From Flaviramulus sp. BrNp1-15 (GTDB lineage: Bacteria; Bacteroidota; Bacteroidia; Flavobacteriales; Flavobacteriaceae): a stretch of DNA of 64,000 bases. A program made the translations under genes and the position numbers. The notes beneath the pieces were generated by a model, which searched no databases, was not told where the DNA came from, and was given only the letters and a program-made list of their open reading frames with translations. Position 1 is the stretch's first letter. Each line of letters begins with the position of its first letter. Shown piece by piece: positions 13,068 through 63,594 of this stretch. The DNA is taken from assembly GCF_022259695.1 (NCBI RefSeq), contig NZ_CP092099.1:2650471-2714470 (forward strand). Direction: 5' to 3'.

Positions 13068-13207
13068 AATGACCACTGACGTGTTTATGTATGGTAGTTG
13101 CGAGTCTTTCATTAAAATAGCCAAAGGAAATGAATCTATTGAAAATACGTAGGATTTTCCAAATAAACATTTGCCAAAGCAATTAATTACACACGTTGTT
13201 GTATGCA
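13068..13207 (-). repeat. attC-like repeat R1
   Basis: Downstream of the protease gene, 123 bases from its AAC core to its GTC (normally GTT) core. On the minus strand it begins TGCATACAACAACGTG, continues with a GTAATTAATTGC arm, has a central hairpin with arms GAAAAT and ATTTTC, and ends GCAACTACCATACATAAACACGTC. Its outer bases are complementary to the start of the same cassette at 14034-14043. Confidence 0.8.
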
Positions 13208-13211
13208 GTTT

Positions 13212-14009
13212 TTAAGGTAAACTATCAAATATTTTTTCCAAATATGATGCTTTCCATAATGCACCATAGATGTAAAGTTTATGTGAATGTGAAAAGACTC
13301 CCATAAATTTTGATTGACCAGTTACAAATGCATTTTTGCCATTTTTAAGTTTTACCATTTGATTACTTTTAAAATAAACTGGGGAACCAGACATTCCTGG
13401 GAAAGTTATAGCGTCAACCCACATTATTGGCTTTCCTTCTTGATCAAAATCTGGTTCAGATGCAATTAGTCCAGATTTCCATACAGGAAATGCAGGAAAA
13501 CTTCTCACACCTCTGGGAAATCCTAAAATGAATACTCTATCAGTAGTTGTTATTTGGACTTCGTCATACGCTGATTTTTTATAATTAACTGGATAAGTTT
13601 TTACTCCAAGAGTATCTTTTAAAGGTAATTCAATTACGTCAACATATTCATTCTTTATTTTATTTTCATGCCATAATTTATTGCCTAATTTATCAAATAA
13701 ATGTTCAGTTTTCAAAATATAAGTTCCCAAACTATCTGCATTGTGAAGTATTACAATTTTATTAGGTGCTACAGGTTTTTTTGGGTCAAGCCATTTATTG
13801 TTGAAAGGATTTTTATTAGTTATAACATGATAATTTGTAACTAAATAATTTTGAGTTTTTGATTTGATAATAAAACCTGTTGCGCTACTTAATTTAGTTG
13901 TGCCATTGTAAGTTTCTATATACAAACTTTGTAAAGACTCAATCTGCGTAATGGTTTGACTTATTGCAGATATAGGTAAAAAAAATAAAAATAGTATAAG
14001 GTTTCTCAT
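13212..14009 (-). CDS. Secreted trypsin-like serine protease (cassette gene)
   Basis: A signal peptide of about 17 residues precedes a chymotrypsin-fold domain. The His site is YLVTNYHVIT (around residue 58), a plausible Asp lies in VDVIELPL (about 126), and the catalytic Ser is in TFPGMSGSPVYF (about 215). The strand LVTNYHV and loop GMSGSPV are typical of stress-type trypsin-like peptidases without a PDZ domain. Substrate is unknown. Its cassette has 10-bp complementary ends (GTTGTATGCA at 13198 and TGCATACAAC at 14034). The stop lies five bases from the repeat edge and the leader is about 24 bases. Confidence 0.82.
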   Translation of the reverse strand: MRNLILFLFFLPISAISQTITQIESLQSLYIETYNGTTKLSSATGFIIKSKTQNYLVTNYHVITNKNPFNNKWLDPKKPVAPNKIVILHNADSLGTYILKTEHLFDKLGNKLWHENKIKNEYVDVIELPLKDTLGVKTYPVNYKKSAYDEVQITTTDRVFILGFPRGVRSFPAFPVWKSGLIASEPDFDQEGKPIMWVDAITFPGMSGSPVYFKSNQMVKLKNGKNAFVTGQSKFMGVFSHSHKLYIYGALWKASYLEKIFDSLP

Positions 14010-14033
14010 TGTTAGAGTAAAGTTTGTTCAAAT

Positions 14034-14173
14034 TGCATACAACGGTTTTATCTATGGTTAGTTGCGTGTTTCAGCAACTAATTTAGCAAACAAATCACAG
14101 ATAGAAAATTCCAGCGGAATTTTCGTAAGTCGGCAGTGAACCAAACAATTAATTATACACGTTGTTGTAACTT
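14034..14173 (-). repeat. attC-like repeat R2
   Basis: Lies between the winged-helix and protease cassettes; 126 bases from AAC core to GTT core. The minus strand reads AAGTTACAACAAC, arm GTGTATAATTAATTG, central hairpin with arms GAAAATTCC and GGAATTTTC around GCT, then arm CAACTAACCATA and core ACCGTTGTATGCA. It contains the segment CTAAATTAGTTGCTGAAACACGCAA, shared in large part with R5 and R7. Confidence 0.85.
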
Positions 14174-14183
14174 GTTTTTTAAA

Positions 14184-15047
14184 TTATTCCTTTTCAAAAT
14201 AGATTTTTGTCATAATACTATCTTTAACAACAGAATCATTTAATACATAATCAAATGCAATATTAATAACTCCTAAAATCTCTTTATCTTCTTTTTCAAA
14301 ATAAGCAATTCTATTTCCACTAAGAAGCATTTTTCTTTTAATCTGGAGTATTACAGATTCTTTTGTATTTACCGAATCTATTATTGGATTTGAAATAAAT
14401 GTTTCTAAAAGATTAATTTCAGGTTTCATTTCAAACCCTTGAGCTTCTTTTAAAATATATGGCTTGTCATAAAATTCATAATTGACAATTCTAAAATTTT
14501 CATTTATAATACTTTTAGTTCCTTGATAGGTAAATTCAATCTCTAAACTGTCAATTGTTGTAAAACTATCCATATTTGTAGTAATTCGATAGGGTTCAAC
14601 TCTTACTAAAGGTTTAACTAATTTATTAGAATGATTACTTGTATTTTCTATCGAGGAATTACTAAATAATAATATATAGCCGACAATTAAACCGCCAAAA
14701 ATTGCAATTGTCCAAGGATCATATAATATCTTTTTTAGATTAATTTTCCATTTAGAAGATAGTTTTGAATATCCTCCAAATTTTAAAAACTCGTAACCTT
14801 TTTTTGTGATTTCTGGGTTTTTTAGTTGATAATTTGCATCAAATTGAAAATTTACTAAACCATCTTCATTCAGTCTTCTCAAATATTTCATAGAAGTATT
14901 AGTTAATAATTCTAATTGCTGATTTGGTTCATTTTCTTTTTTGAGTAGTTCTTTTAAAATATTATCTAGAGTTTTAATATCATCTTTGTCTAAACTTAAA
15001 TGAGAGTTTGGGTTTGAAATATTTATGTTAAAATCTGTTTTTTTCAT
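14184..15047 (-). CDS. Winged-helix-like single-pass membrane protein (cassette gene)
   Basis: Not assigned to a family. Residues about 20-95 look like a small winged-helix domain (KYLRRLNEDGLVNFQFDANY then ITKKGYEFLKFGG, a phrase common in YjcQ/marR-like helices). One transmembrane helix follows at about 115-132 (TIAIFGGLIVGYILLFS), then a 150-residue outer domain of beta character. This topology suggests a membrane-tethered sensor or regulator, by inference. Cassette ends are GTTGTAACTT (14164) and AAGTTACAAC (15054), a perfect 10-bp complement; the leader is only seven bases. Confidence 0.6.
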   Translation of the reverse strand: MKKTDFNINISNPNSHLSLDKDDIKTLDNILKELLKKENEPNQQLELLTNTSMKYLRRLNEDGLVNFQFDANYQLKNPEITKKGYEFLKFGGYSKLSSKWKINLKKILYDPWTIAIFGGLIVGYILLFSNSSIENTSNHSNKLVKPLVRVEPYRITTNMDSFTTIDSLEIEFTYQGTKSIINENFRIVNYEFYDKPYILKEAQGFEMKPEINLLETFISNPIIDSVNTKESVILQIKRKMLLSGNRIAYFEKEDKEILGVINIAFDYVLNDSVVKDSIMTKIYFEKE

Positions 15048-15053
15048 CTAAAT

Positions 15054-15191
15054 AAGTTACAACGGTCTAGTGTATGATTTCGTTGCCTGTTTAAGCATTA
15101 AAGTTAGCGAATAAATCACAGATAGAAAGTCCGCGAGGACTTTCGTAAGTAAGCTATAACTAGCAATGAATTATACACATTGTTGTGCTTA
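15054..15191 (-). repeat. attC-like repeat R3
   Basis: Lies between the HEPN/nuclease and winged-helix cassettes; 124 bases between cores. The minus strand reads TAAGCACAACAAT, arm GTGTATAATTCATTGC, hairpin arms GAAAGTCC and GGACTTTC around TCGC, then GCAACGAAATCATACAC and core ACCGTTGTAACTT. Both the hairpin (AT pair to GC) and the arm (TTA/TAA to TTC/GAA) differ from other copies in a compensatory way. Confidence 0.85.
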
Positions 15192-15192
15192 G

Positions 15193-16140
15193 TTATTTTA
15201 TCGTTGTCGTATAATAAATTTCTTTTCCGAAATGTGCCATAGTATCAATTTCTAAAAAATTTGAGCTCGGAACATTTTTTGGATACCATAAAATACCTTG
15301 TTCAATTTTGGTTGCAGTTAGATAATCCAATAGTTGGTCTTCGTGAGAATGAGTTTGTCTAATTGAAGGTCGTTTGAATTCAATTATTAGTTTTTCTTTC
15401 CCTAATTCGACCAACATATCCAATCTGTAACTTCTGTTTTTGTCAGAATGTTTAACGTCAGTTTTTACTTCAATTTCTTTCGATGCAGTTTTGATAAAAG
15501 CACTAAACATTCCAATCAATTCAAGTTCTTTAGTGTTAGAATTTAAAAGTTTATTTTCTGTAGAAAACTCTTTTATTAATTCAACTATTTTTTCGTGTAA
15601 ATCTAAATCAGGTTTTTTAATAATTGCTTGAATTAACTTCTGCTTTTCCTTTTCATTTTTAAGTCTTTCTTTCTCGTTATCAAAAGCAAGTTTTTCAATG
15701 ATTTGATTTAATAAAACATATATGTAAGCCGAAACGTTTACAATAGCTAAAAATGCCTCACTTTGGTCAAAGAATAGTTTAAAATCGTGAGTTGACTTAT
15801 TCCTCCATTCTTGTCTGTAATTTTTAAAAAAGTGAAGAACACGTTCATTAAATATTGAATTTGTCTCAAAGAAATCCTCAATATCAACAGTTCGCTTATT
15901 GTTAGCTTGACTTTCAGATTTTTCAGCTAAAATCATATATGATTGCCTTAAACTTCCCTCAAAAGCTTGATTAGTTCTGTAGATTACATCTGTAAAATAG
16001 TTTTCATCTCCATTTAATCTTCCCTCTTTGTAGAAAAATTCAGCACGTTCAATATGAATTAGAACTTTATCTAAAGTCACAGCAGAAGATAATTCTCTTA
16101 TCTCTGTTATTTGCTCTCTGATTGCATTTAAAGTGTCCAA
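15193..16140 (-). CDS. Probable HEPN + PD-(D/E)XK nuclease-like fusion (cassette gene)
   Basis: Residues about 22-155 are all-helical and resemble a HEPN domain: IHIERAEFFYKEGRL, YRTNQAFEGSLRQSYMIL, then the RNase-type motif RNKSTH (Arg113, His118, Rx4H with Asn after Arg). A charged coiled region (155-175) follows. Residues 225-290 carry a restriction-type core: RLDMLVELG (Asp241), LIIEFKRP (Glu254, Lys256), and a helix with EDQLLDYL (Gln269). HEPN RNases and PD-(D/E)XK nucleases are both common in defence and toxin systems, so a defence role is plausible but inferred. Cassette ends are GTTGTGCTTA (15182) and TAAGCACAAC (16161). No partner antitoxin gene is visible. Confidence 0.6.
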   Translation of the reverse strand: MDTLNAIREQITEIRELSSAVTLDKVLIHIERAEFFYKEGRLNGDENYFTDVIYRTNQAFEGSLRQSYMILAEKSESQANNKRTVDIEDFFETNSIFNERVLHFFKNYRQEWRNKSTHDFKLFFDQSEAFLAIVNVSAYIYVLLNQIIEKLAFDNEKERLKNEKEKQKLIQAIIKKPDLDLHEKIVELIKEFSTENKLLNSNTKELELIGMFSAFIKTASKEIEVKTDVKHSDKNRSYRLDMLVELGKEKLIIEFKRPSIRQTHSHEDQLLDYLTATKIEQGILWYPKNVPSSNFLEIDTMAHFGKEIYYTTTIK

Positions 16141-16160
16141 TTTCGGTAGTTTTTTCTAAT

Positions 16161-16292
16161 TAAGCACAACTAAGGGATATGAATCATTTCACACTTCTAC
16201 TTCACTCATTAAAAACCAATTACACCCACTAACAAGCTAAATTAATAGAAATGCCACACTATTGAAAGCGAAGTTATTAAGAGTTGTAAACA
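16161..16292 (-). repeat. attC-like repeat R4 or array boundary site (divergent)
   Basis: The upstream edge TAAGCACAAC complements the far end of the HEPN cassette. A GTTGTAAACA box at 16283-16292, seven bases before the end of the pyruvate-kinase-like gene, gives a 118-base AAC-to-GTT interval, close to the other copies. The interior shows little of the family arms or hairpin (only a GTTAGTGGGTGTAATTGG segment on minus). It may be a decayed repeat or a primary attachment site; no partner for GTTGTAAACA was found upstream of the kinase-like gene. Confidence 0.45.
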
Positions 16293-26165: not shown

Positions 26166-26277
26166 AGCACGCTAACTCATTTTTGTAGAATTTTTAGTTA
26201 TTTTAGAGGTGGTATATAATGTGGATAAACGTATTATCTTTATCCATATGTTGTACACAATTTAACCAAACATTTGT

Positions 26278-26898
26278 ATGAAAGAAAATAAACATTATTT
26301 AATATTACCTTTTTTCTTGTTAGTAATATCTTGTTTAAATAATAAATCTTCAGATGAAACTATTGAGGTTAATTTTAGTCAAAAGACCATAAAAAATCAG
26401 ATATTTAAAAATCCCGAAGCAAACAAAACGAATAGTATTGCTGTAGAATTCGCGAAAAAAGGAGAAAACATAAAAGCGGAAAATATTTTCCATGAAGCTT
26501 TAGAAATCGAGCCTGATAACTACACGATAATGAGCAACATTGGATTGAATTCATTAGCTCTTAAAAAATATGACAAATCAATTGAATTTTTAAAAAAATC
26601 AATTACTGCTTCTGATTCAACTTATTTTATTGCAAGTTCCAATTTAGGACTTGTCTATTACAAAACTTCTGAATATGAAAAATCTATAAAAATTTTAGAC
26701 TTTGTCATTAAAAATTGTGATGATAAAGAAATTATTTTAGCTTCTTATATAAACCAAGCTTTTAGTTACTTATCAATCGGAAATTGTACTGAAGCTAAAA
26801 ACAACTTAATTCTTATTAAGAAAATAGAATTTGAATACAATGCTGACGTTGAATATGTTGAAGAAAAATTAAAAAAATGTGTACAACAACGTGTATAA
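26278..26898 (+). CDS. TPR-repeat lipoprotein (cassette gene)
   Basis: A lipoprotein signal ends LVISC (Cys19). Residues about 55-200 form four tetratricopeptide-type helix pairs (AVEFAKKGENIKAENIFHEAL, NIGLNSLALKKYDKSIEFLKK, NLGLVYYKTSEYEKSIKIL, NQAFSYLSIGNCTEAKNNL), a protein-binding scaffold. No partner is known. The last six codons, including the stop, lie inside repeat R5, so the C-terminal VQQRV is encoded by the repeat. Leader of 18 bases after the cassette edge. Confidence 0.85.
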   Translation: MKENKHYLILPFFLLVISCLNNKSSDETIEVNFSQKTIKNQIFKNPEANKTNSIAVEFAKKGENIKAENIFHEALEIEPDNYTIMSNIGLNSLALKKYDKSIEFLKKSITASDSTYFIASSNLGLVYYKTSEYEKSIKILDFVIKNCDDKEIILASYINQAFSYLSIGNCTEAKNNLILIKKIEFEYNADVEYVEEKLKKCVQQRV

Positions 26899-27020
26899 TT
26901 AATTGCTTTGGCAAGTGCTTATTTGGAAAATTCCTTCGGAATTTTCTCGCGTTCGTTTTTGTTTACTAAATTAGTTGCTGAAACACGCAACTAACCATAC
27001 ACAACAACGTTAGGAGTAAT
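26878..27020 (+). repeat. attC-like repeat R5
   Basis: 127 bases from AAC to GTT core. The order is TGTGTACAAC, AAC, arm GTGTATAATTAATTGC, central hairpin with arms GAAAATTCC and GGAATTTTC around TTC (26926-26946), arm GCAACTAACCATACAC, AACAAC, GTTAGGAG. The two arms pair over 16 bases with three A-C mismatches that are G-T wobbles on the other strand. It is about 91 percent identical by eye to R7, 35 kb away. Confidence 0.9.
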
Positions 27021-27071
27021 AATGACCAAACAAAGTTAACTTCAATCAGTTATTAATCAGATTAAAATACA

Positions 27072-27770
27072 ATGACTCACACCAAGACTTTTAAATTAGT
27101 ATTTCTTCAAATACTAATTATAATTTCAACAAAATCCTTTTCTCAAATTGTTGACAAACACTACAATCATAAAACAGCAGCACTTGAATTAGAAAACGTA
27201 GCCAAAAAAATAAGCTCTGGATTACCATATAATATCAGTCCAAAATTAGTGCAGTATATGTATGAAAATCATGAGGATTTTCCGAAAATACCAGAAAACT
27301 CTAGTTCTAAAAATAAAATGGAAACCCTAGCCCCTACTTATACCTACATTAATTTAATCCTTAAATCACAATTGATTGCACCTCAGGATTCAATTTCTAA
27401 AAAACAGGCTATGTTAGCGGCTACTCTCGGATATCAATCTATTAAAATTATTTCTCTATCCAATGAATTCATAAATTCTCTGGATAAGGATGCTTATAAT
27501 TACAAAACACGGGTTAGAGGATTTAATCAAGGAATAAAAGGCTTAAAGCAGTATCTTTTAGGCTATACTACAATGACATTTTTAGAAAATCAAAACCAAA
27601 ATGTTGATGACATACTAATTTCAAATTTAAAAAATTTTGCTCCAAAAATCTTAAATGAATTTCCTAGAGATGAAAAAGAACTAACCATTCAATTACTAAA
27701 GTCATCAATAGAAGGGAAAAATGATATTCGATTAATAAATGAATTCAATAGTTTTATTGAATCACTATAA
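27072..27770 (+). CDS. Exported protein of unknown function (cassette gene)
   Basis: A signal peptide (cleavage near KSFS-Q, residue 24) precedes a 208-residue mostly helical domain: NHKTAALELENVAKKI, a segment with KKQAMLAATLGYQSIKIISL, and NQGIKGLKQYLLGYTTMTFLENQN. No family is recognised. The conserved Lys/Gln face and absence of Cys give no enzymatic clue. Its cassette ends (GTTAGGAGTAATA and TACTATTGCTAAC) match at 10 of 13, older than the neighbours. The leader of about 50 bases is the longest of the plus-strand units. Confidence 0.65.
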   Translation: MTHTKTFKLVFLQILIIISTKSFSQIVDKHYNHKTAALELENVAKKISSGLPYNISPKLVQYMYENHEDFPKIPENSSSKNKMETLAPTYTYINLILKSQLIAPQDSISKKQAMLAATLGYQSIKIISLSNEFINSLDKDAYNYKTRVRGFNQGIKGLKQYLLGYTTMTFLENQNQNVDDILISNLKNFAPKILNEFPRDEKELTIQLLKSSIEGKNDIRLINEFNSFIESL

Positions 27771-27778
27771 AGCAAATG

Positions 27779-27920
27779 TACTATTGCTAACATAGTCTAT
27801 AATTTATTGCTAAGACTCTACTGCTTTCGAAAATCCTACGGATTTTATATTCGGTTTGTATTTGCTAAATTAGTTACTTAACAACACAATAAAAACGATG
27901 TTTAAAACCGTTGCAATCAA
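27779..27920 (+). repeat. attC-like repeat R6 (degenerate)
   Basis: 124 bases between AAC and GTT cores. The left arm TCTATAATTTATTGC and the central hairpin (arms AAAATCC and GGATTTT around TAC) are clear, and CTAAATTAGTTACT is shared with R5 and R7. The right arm is disrupted by an A-rich segment, and the edge is ACCGTTGCAATC. Confidence 0.65.
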
Positions 27921-61118: not shown

Positions 61119-61192
61119 GGCGAGGTAGCTCAGTTGGTTAGAGCGTCGGATTCATAACCCGGAGGTCGGGGGATCGTGCCCCCCTCTCGCTA
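61119..61192 (+). tRNA. tRNA-Met (anticodon CAT)
   Basis: A 74-base cloverleaf: acceptor GGCGAGG / TCTCGCT with G-T ends, D-stem GCTC/GAGC, anticodon loop TTCATAA with CAT, T-stem GGGGG/CCCCC, and discriminator A. Because there is no C1-A72 initiator mismatch and the three GC anticodon pairs are imperfect, an elongator Met tRNA is more likely than initiator. The T-loop is ATCGTGC rather than TTCRANY, and the anticodon stem closes with an A-C pair. No CCA is encoded, as is usual here. An integrase fragment follows 55 bases downstream. Confidence 0.88.
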
Positions 61193-61247
61193 CAAATGTA
61201 AAATCACACAAAACTAGCGGTTTAGGTTTTCTCTAAACCGTTTTTTT

Positions 61248-62081
61248 ATGTCTACATTTAAACAAATTCTTACTTTTGCATACGAAAGTGAATACGAAAG
61301 TGCATACGATTTGTCAAAAAAGAAACTTTTTTCCAGTCCAAAAATCTATACAGCCAACGGAAATTTATCCAAGCGATGGTATGTGTATTTTTCCTTTCGA
61401 GACCCCAATACAGGTAAACTAAAGCGTCTCACCCCGTTTTATGGAACAGCAAACACTTATAAAACCAAGGAAGAGCGCATGGAAGTACTTACAGTATATC
61501 GTAAAGTATTACTCAAGCTCTTAAAACAAGGTTATAATCCTTTTAAAGATAACACTGCGTTATATCAAAAATTACATGGAAAAACTATAACCACACCTTC
61601 AATAACTGAAGAAAGCACCCAACAAAAAGAAGCGAAACAGAGCTTAAATCAACCCCGAGAAATGCCCAATCTATCATTGAGGGCTGCGTTTGATTATGGT
61701 TTAAAACTCAAAGAAAAATTAGTAGGTGTACGTACTTTAAAAGATTATAGAAATAAAATAGATCTGTTGTTAAAATGGTTGGATAAAAACCATCCAAATA
61801 TTAAAACAATTGACACTTTAGATAAACAGTTGGTTCTTCAGTTTTTAAACCATGTTTTAGATAAAACCTCTCCACGTAATAGAAATAATTATCGAGCCGA
61901 TTTAGGTAGCATTATTCAAGTGTTGGAAGATAATGATGTTATTGGACAGAACTTTGTAAAAAACATACCCATATTAAAATCAAAACCAGAACGCAATAAA
62001 ACCTATACGTTAGAAACTCAAGAAGCAATAGATAAGAACATAGAACTTTCTATAAAGGAACAAGAGAACAAAAAGAATTAA
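61248..62081 (+). pseudogene. Tyrosine integrase fragment lacking the catalytic domain
   Basis: 277 residues: an N-terminal arm-type region (SKRWYVYFSFRDPNTGKLKRL) and a SAM-like core-binding domain (about 150-245, LKDYRNKIDLLLKWLDKNHP, SPRNRNNYRADLGSIIQVLED). It then reads ETQEAIDKNIELSIKEQEN and stops where the Flavobacteriaceae integrase family continues into the catalytic domain. The Arg, His-x-x-Arg and Tyr of the recombinase site are therefore absent. The break coincides with repeat R7 of cassette array 3, ten bases from the stop. It sits 55 bases from tRNA-Met, a typical island site. Confidence 0.8.
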
Positions 62082-62083
62082 AC

Positions 62084-62224
62084 TATGCACAACACCGTGT
62101 ATAATTAATTGCTTTGGTCGTTGCTTATATGGAAAATTCCTTCGGAATTTTCTCGCGCTCGTTTTTGTTTACTAAATTAGTTGCTCAAACACGCAACTAA
62201 CCATACACAAGACCGTTGTACACC
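62084..62224 (+). repeat. attC-like repeat R7
   Basis: 127 bases between cores. The layout equals R5: TATGCACAAC, arm GTGTATAATTAATTGC, hairpin arms GAAAATTCC and GGAATTTTC around TTC, arm GCAACTAACCATACAC, ACCGTTGTACACC. It differs from R5 at about 12 of 130 bases by eye. Its left-edge bases (TATGC) have no complementary partner nearby. Confidence 0.9.
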
Positions 62225-62236
62225 ATTTGAGGAAAT

Positions 62237-62731
62237 ATGAAAATACTGACAATATTTACACTTTTTTTATTTATTAATTCTGGGATTATAGAGAATAATT
62301 GCGTTGATAATGTGAAAATCGGAATGGATATTTCTGAATTTTTAGAAAGTAAGAGAGAAATTTACAAAGTCAAAGAAGAAACAATAAATCTTGAAGGAGA
62401 TGACTATCCTATTTTTAATGTTTATGAAAACTCTGAATTGATTTATGCTGTAGAACCAGACGAAAACGGAGAAAAAGTGTGGAGGATTTGGCTATATGGA
62501 CAGAAGTTCAAAACAGAATTAGGAATTGGTATAGGCAATACTCTTGTTGACTTAAAAAACAAATATACCATTGACGATATATCAACAGCCGAGGGAAGTT
62601 TATTTATCTTGGTCAAAGAAATTGAAGTTGGTTTTGAATTAGATGGCTCTAAAATACCAAGAGAATGGTGGAACGAAATGAAGCTTGAGGAATTGAAAAA
62701 TGATTTACCGATAAGTTTAATAATAATATAA
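62237..62731 (+). CDS. Exported protein of unknown function (cassette gene)
   Basis: 164 residues with a signal peptide (LTIFTLFLFINSGI), then a domain with VKIGMDISEFLESKREIYKV, IYAVEPDENGEKVWRIWLYG and IGIGNTLVDLKNKYTIDDI. The repeated IGxxxxxxL pattern suggests two similar halves, seen in small beta-rich periplasmic proteins. No family is recognised. A 10-bp perfect complement bounds the unit; leader of 12 bases, stop five bases from the right edge. Confidence 0.65.
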   Translation: MKILTIFTLFLFINSGIIENNCVDNVKIGMDISEFLESKREIYKVKEETINLEGDDYPIFNVYENSELIYAVEPDENGEKVWRIWLYGQKFKTELGIGIGNTLVDLKNKYTIDDISTAEGSLFILVKEIEVGFELDGSKIPREWWNEMKLEELKNDLPISLIII

Positions 62732-62735
62732 AAAC

Positions 62736-62879
62736 GGTGTACAACAATGCATAAAAATAATGCTTAGTTTTATACTTAATCAAAGTTTAGTGCTTTTTTG
62801 TTAGCTTCTGATTTTCCTTCGGAAAATCCTCGCATACAAACACGTAACTTTTCTTACACATAAACATTTTGCACAATAT
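62736..62879 (+). repeat. attC-like repeat R8
   Basis: 126 bases from the AAC core to ATT in place of GTT. The central hairpin has arms GATTTTCC and GGAAAATC around TTC (62810-62828), unlike R5 in sequence but equally paired. The arms are more diverged (ATGCATAAAAATAATGC with a CTTACACAT side). Edge bases continue into the next gene's start. Confidence 0.75.
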
Positions 62880-63452: not shown

Positions 63453-63594
63453 ATACTGTACACAACAACGTATATAAAAAATTGCTGGTGTTGTGCTAAA
63501 ACAAAGGTCGTTGCACGTTTGCTACGTCTGATTTTCCTTCGGAAAATCCTCGCACGCAAACCCGCAACTTTCCATATACAAACACGTTACAGGT
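63453..63594 (+). repeat. attC-like repeat R9
   Basis: 125 bases between cores. The hairpin has arms GATTTTCC and GGAAAATC around TTC (63530-63548). The left arm GTATATAAAAAATTGC and right arm GCAACTTTCCATATAC pair over 16 bases with the same three A-C positions as R5, although the intervening bases (TTA/TAA in R5) have changed to AAA/TTT. Confidence 0.85.

Follow-up and report, generated by a model that had tools for sequence, protein, structure and literature searches.

A candidate integron-like cassette system of Bacteroidota with its own recombinase and attC-like sites whose strand is probably marked by G-T wobbles

The closest described systems are the integrons, in which the crossover takes place between the first base and the TT of a core with the consensus GTTRRRY / RYYYAAC (PMC12901181). 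In the known attC sites, the integrase IntI uses its alpha-I2 helix and beta-4,5 strands to read extrahelical bases on the bottom strand (PMC3053210). Cassettes can also be inserted at genomic sites named attG (Loot et al. 2024, cited in PMC12901181). Bacteroidetes are regarded as almost devoid of integrons: a single complete one, in Salinibacter, was reported for this group by IntegronFinder 2.0 (PMC9024848), and a review lists Bacteroidota among the integron-bearing phyla without further detail (PMC8618304). In the present analysis, nearly all of the Flavobacteriaceae genomes searched contained cassette arrays, which can reach tens of kilobases and include abortive-infection genes beside many unknowns. 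No description of such a system was found in a literature search that excluded preprints and most subscription papers, so an earlier account may exist.

The 3.58-Mb chromosome of the Flavobacteriaceae strain Flaviramulus sp. BrNp1-15 contains about 58 related sites according to a covariance model for which 38 divergent sites were used and whose E-values are rough owing to a short calibration. The window, that is, the whole stretch of 64,000 nucleotides that was analysed, contains eight of them in three clusters (13.1-15.2 kb, minus strand; 26.9-27.9 kb, plus strand; 62.1-63.6 kb, plus strand), as follows.

13076..13202, minus strand: attC-like site of the minus-strand cluster
14039..14168, minus strand: attC-like site of the minus-strand cluster
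15059..15186, minus strand: attC-like site of the minus-strand cluster (R3 of the first-pass annotation)
26878..27018, plus strand: attC-like site (R5), with R'' TGTGTACAAC at 26878-26887, L'' at 26891-26906, L' at 26987-27002 and R' GTTAGGAGTA at 27009-27018
about 26924-26947, plus strand: terminal hairpin of the site at 26878..27018
between 27009 and 27010, plus strand: putative crossover point of the site at 26878..27018
27787-27914, plus strand: degenerate attC-like site of cassette 2 (47 bits)
62089..62219, plus strand: attC-like site (R7)
62741..62870, plus strand: attC-like site
63462..63590, plus strand: attC-like site (R9)

The first-pass annotation had drawn attention to R5, whose arms GTGTATAATTAATTGC (26891-26906) and GCAACTAACCATACAC (26987-27002) are perfect complements except at arm positions 7, 8 and 12, which are A-C mismatches on the plus strand and G-T wobbles on the minus strand. 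These arms were found just as described and recur unaltered in the copy at 62089, while those of the copy at 63462, GTATATAAAAAATTGC / GCAACTTTCCATATAC, keep the three wobble positions unchanged, and the compensatory TTC/GAA change reported for R3 is present in the minus-strand copy at 15186-15059. The matches to the 5' end of the site are not due to chance, with 7 seen and 0.15 expected. Two aspects of the earlier description needed amendment. The feature includes the arms and is longer than had been proposed, extending from R'' at 26878-26887 through R' at 27009-27018. Furthermore, the constancy of the same three wobble positions holds in the subfamily of R5, R7 and R9 only; positions 7 and 8 vary family-wide.

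The strand asymmetry itself is real and general. In 113 arm pairs from related genomes, an A-C on the top strand that becomes a G-T on the bottom strand was counted at 246 positions, and the reverse at 5. The wobble is seen at arm position 7 in 73 of the 113 sites and at position 8 in 47, and the one near position 12 is invariant, being present in all 38 divergent sites once these are aligned with gaps. Two invariant G-T pairs are found in 38 out of 38 divergent sites, one beside the crossover and the other within the stem. When both strands were folded, a check that the first-pass annotation had suggested, the bottom strand had the more stable fold in nearly all of 115 sites: RNA parameters favoured it in 114 and DNA parameters in 108. 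In one subtype, represented in the window at 26969-26994 and in similar sites, a local hairpin of the top strand (TTAGTTGC/GCAACTAA) competes with the long stem and is a possible further source of strand bias.

Compensatory change affects 12 of the 16 stem pairs. In an unfitted alignment of the 38 divergent sites, 96.5% of the cells pair and 13 pairs change on both sides. Cells with two-sided changes number 122, as opposed to 38 after shuffling, and none of 500 shuffles reaches 122, although these counts overstate the significance because the sites are related and not independent. Slide controls, which keep this relatedness, yield 30-43% of paired cells at shifts of one or two columns and 46-54% at three, far under the 96.5%. 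RNAalifold gives one structure of 21 pairs for the bottom strand of the 38 sites, and only 12 pairs for another set, of 20 sites, aligned as top strands. The bottom strands of the 38 sites contain 83 G-T pairs versus 2 A-C; in 25 sites the L stem is free of extra bases, and in 12 it has one or two at a single place.

The strong covariation, the restriction of GU wobbles to one strand and the location of the sites after genes would also suit an RNA function, be it a small RNA from the minus strand, which the first-pass annotation had offered as an alternative, or a structure at the mRNA 3' ends of the cassette genes. However, no structured-RNA family in Rfam matches the site, and the small-RNA proposal gained no support. 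An RNA function also leaves unexplained the complementary ends owned by each cassette, the N^TT junctions, the empty targets and the neighbouring recombinase described below, and it appears very improbable.

Consecutive sites enclose one gene or a small gene pair, and the two ends of such a unit are mutually complementary (for example, GTTACACCA...TGGTGTAAC), following the pattern GTTRNNNNN...NNNNNYAAC. In a set of 172 cassettes, for which the sites were redefined by the stem alone to avoid circularity, the six variable end bases are complementary in 85.5% within the cassette, in 40.2% within the site and in 34.3% after shuffling (maximum 39.3%). All 172 sites have GTTR, the rest of the core being variable, and GTTRRRY is found in 9 of them. 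The median length of 233 cassettes is 684 bp; the longest ORF has the orientation of the site in 220 of these, and 198 carry an extra fixed wobble at cassette-end position 11, with A-C on the top strand. In a circular cassette, the ends would be expected to extend the folded stem of the site. The cassettes of the window are the following.

26251..27009, plus strand: cassette 1, a TPR-protein gene (26278-26898) plus the site; it starts with TTGTACACA, the complement of which is the R'' TGTGTACAAC
27010..27910, plus strand: cassette 2, with a gene at 27072-27770 that has no Pfam match; it starts with TTAG and its R'' ends with CTAAC
13076..16169, minus strand: three consecutive cassettes, each with its own complementary ends; left end CATATCCCTTAG^TTGTGC
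15193-16140, minus strand: PDDEXK-like nuclease gene in a cassette of 13076..16169
14184-15047, minus strand: gene with no assigned function in a cassette of 13076..16169
13212-14009, minus strand: trypsin-like peptidase gene in a cassette of 13076..16169
62216-62745, plus strand: cassette ahead of the site at 62741..62870, with 10-nt complementary ends GTTGTACACC/GGTGTACAAC

With regard to cassette content elsewhere, the first cassette after the recombinase at one locus (L026:5759-6592) encodes an Abi_C protein, and a further one (L026:16080-17683) carries an AbiEi/AbiEii pair; anti-phage genes are therefore among the cassettes. One cassette is present several times within the array at L108, L109 (genome G014) and L110 (genome G255), and in G014 the sites next to the recombinase extend over about 55 kb. 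In the window, positions 61120-62081 hold a tRNA-Met-like gene and, after it, an integrase fragment of 277 aa with the N-terminal and core-binding parts only, and then comes the attC-like site at 62089; the fragment looks like an island integrase truncated at the cassette junction.

The first cassette of the plus-strand cluster at 26.9-27.9 kb is preceded by a hairpin.

26222..26250, plus strand: attI-like or target hairpin before the first cassette, GGATAAA-CGTATTATC-TTTATCC-ATAT, ending with TTTATCCATAT^GTTGTA

It ends exactly as the attI-like site of another genome (G040, locus L085). The main array of the chromosome likewise has a palindrome, TATATAGTTACTAGTAACTATATA-CATAC^GTTG, between the recombinase gene and the array, and a palindrome followed by GTT between the recombinase and the first cassette is found in many genomes, unlike the known double-stranded attI. 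In addition, about a dozen solitary cassettes of this genome lie in copies of one palindromic element, of which an empty copy was found at C1:1441239-1441296 (L113), reading TTCGTTTAAC-ATTAGATATAAAACATTAAAACGATTTCATATC-AAGTCG^TTAAACGAA. This element resembles a short attC-like site, since it has R''/R'-like arms and an A-C/G-T position in the stem. In most of its copies, 35 nt further upstream (TTGACTTTGTAAAAAATTTCAGCTAACTTCG) are conserved, and they look promoter-like or like part of a larger element. The left ends of cassettes were searched with only TT required, since a GTT requirement misses A^TT insertions. In the 11 occupied copies, the target flank is unchanged up to an A or G, with the TT of the cassette next; at the right junction, the G of the cassette is always present and the target then resumes with TTAAAC(G/T)AA. 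The junctions of the 11 occupied copies and the empty one therefore place the exchange between the first base and the TT (N^TT), from which we infer an integron-like crossover between the first and second base of R'. Of 25 dispersed clusters, about 17 are co-directional with replication, which is not significant and assumes an origin at dnaA (C1:1.418 Mb); the skew of this chromosome is too weak for placing origin and terminus.

The dispersed intergenic copies and the repetition of the palindromic targets might recall a repeat of the transposable or REP-like kind that some other enzyme spreads, such as an IS200/IS605 relative or a MITE, with the intervening genes there by coincidence. Yet the copies bound single-gene units that share end sequences and form long arrays in the same orientation, and what lies at the junctions is a gene plus a site, not the repeat alone, which makes such an origin barely conceivable.

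The main array starts directly after the gene of a candidate recombinase.

C1:2886557-2887687, outside the window, same strand as the array: tyrosine recombinase, Xer-type, 376 aa

Orthologues with 56-78% identity are found in about 50 of 299 genomes of the family, and 78 of 80 family genomes are site-bearing. Among the fetched Flavobacteriaceae neighbourhoods of an orthologue, 18 of 20 have same-strand cassettes downstream; as for the remaining two, the contig of L077 ends almost directly downstream, and L072 has nothing beyond a chance pair. More distant homologues adjoin arrays too. In a sample of 80 named or MAG loci of recombinase homologues, all 48 site matches are on the bottom strand and 47 are downstream, all in Bacteroidota loci, including those of Winogradskyella ursingii, Seonamhaeicola aphaedonensis, Algibacter onchidii, Flavobacterium and Algoriphagus; no sites were found near the homologues from other phyla in these 80 neighbourhoods. 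Across 247 genomes of the phylum, 36 have the recombinase and at least 3 sites, 9 have sites only, 44 have the recombinase only and 158 have neither (Fisher p 3e-13 for genomes with at least 3 sites). A recombinase match at the threshold used is absent in 9 of the 45 phylum genomes with at least 3 sites, and 3 of those 9 carry an IntI-family match; chance or canonical attC may account for some of the single site matches outside Flavobacteriaceae. In a different family of this phylum (L112 of genome G342, and genomes G334, G349 and G465), a homologue of about 282 aa is divergent from the array, which is the usual integron layout. Position and co-occurrence together suggest that the recombinase acts on the sites.

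The local recombinase was considered as an IntI and rejected: it scores 126.6 bits against a curated cut-off of 265, with a gap at model positions 178-240, which correspond to the extra segment of IntI. Of 61 members of its clade for which the catalytic-motif spacing was measured, 60 have 67-72 residues, compared with 109 in two genuine IntI from the same phylum. The recombinase aligns in two pieces to IntI4 (2a3v) and in one piece to XerA/XerC-like proteins, and a quick tree places the array-associated recombinases in one Bacteroidota clade (SH-aLRT 97) from which IntI and the Xer proteins of this genome are absent. Structure prediction (pLDDT 81, pTM 0.49) gives a fold closest to IntI4 on attC (2a3v) and to XerA, and the N-terminal extension of about 100 residues has no Pfam match. 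Judged by its sequence, which lacks the insertion, misses the cut-off and falls outside IntI in the tree, the array-adjacent recombinase is not an IntI.

These comparisons bear on whether the locus could be an ordinary chromosomal integron, with canonical attC and an IntI integrase, merely unannotated in this family. The cassette logic, the crossover and the folding of the bottom strand are the same, and IntI4 is the best structural match of the recombinase. However, a search with the IntI model gave none over the curated cut-off in this genome, and none at E<=1e-50 among the Flavobacteriaceae rows listed in the phylum sample, in which 70 of the 247 genomes do have an IntI over the cut-off. 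The missing insertion, the clade that excludes IntI, the rarity of GTTRRRY and the 25 of 38 sites without an extra stem base likewise speak against an ordinary integron, which we consider improbable.

Taken together, the locus very probably belongs to an integron-like cassette system of Bacteroidota that has its own recombinase and attC-like sites in which the strand would be marked by G-T wobbles and not by extrahelical bases. The attC-like reading proposed in the first-pass annotation, with a folded single strand being recognised, is strongly supported by the complementary ends owned by each cassette, the recombinase beside the arrays, the empty target and the precise crossover. In the mechanism that we propose, the bottom strand of the site would fold into the R''/R' and L''/L' stems, and the Xer-type recombinase would bind the folded strand and cleave it at N^TT. 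Single-gene cassettes would thereby be excised or inserted, the points of insertion being the palindromic attI-like site, further attC-like sites or the dispersed palindromic targets. The conserved G-T wobbles, being A-C mismatches on the top strand, would let only the bottom strand fold well, and both strand choice and cassette orientation could be set in this way. The recombinase would then act on single strands and read the wobbles, which probably tell the enzyme which strand to use; the lack of an extra base in most sites, the 83 G-T versus 2 A-C pairs and the absence of the IntI insertion all suggest that the wobbles have taken over the role of strand marker. The system makes it testable whether wobble pairs are enough for a recombinase to recognise one folded strand or whether extrahelical bases and the IntI insertion are required. 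There seems to be an even chance that it represents a separate, Bacteroidota-native integron-like class, with an Xer-type recombinase devoid of the IntI insertion, folded single strands and a strand coded by G-T wobbles, which may be independent of IntI in origin.

Since IntI is missing here and most sites lack the integron core and the extrahelical bases, the system is, by its sequence features, called integron-like and not an integron. As in integrons, single-gene cassettes are arrayed in one orientation; the sites have R'', L'', L' and R', with the R' and R'' of one cassette being complementary; the crossover would fall after the first base of GTT; the folding strand is the bottom one relative to the cassette genes, as in attC; and a palindrome that may be the counterpart of attI lies beside the recombinase. 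Conversely, the recombinase lacks the IntI insertion and is outside the IntI clade, the recombinase gene of Flavobacteriaceae lies on the strand of the array with its 3' end towards it, and the putative attI-like site is palindromic. The core is GTTRNNN, with cassette-specific arms of about 10-14 nt, and the strand asymmetry is provided by G-T wobbles, extra bases being absent in most sites. As in attG insertion, single cassettes are found in the chromosome away from the array, whereas the targets here are copies of a repeated palindromic element that measures about 56 bp and carries R''/R'-like arms, almost all of the copies seen being occupied. XerA/XerC-like tyrosine recombinases (4a8e, 5hxy) are the closest sequence matches and share the same catalytic-motif spacing; in contrast to them, the recombinase described here has the N-terminal extension and, from its position beside cassette arrays, would act there and not at dif.
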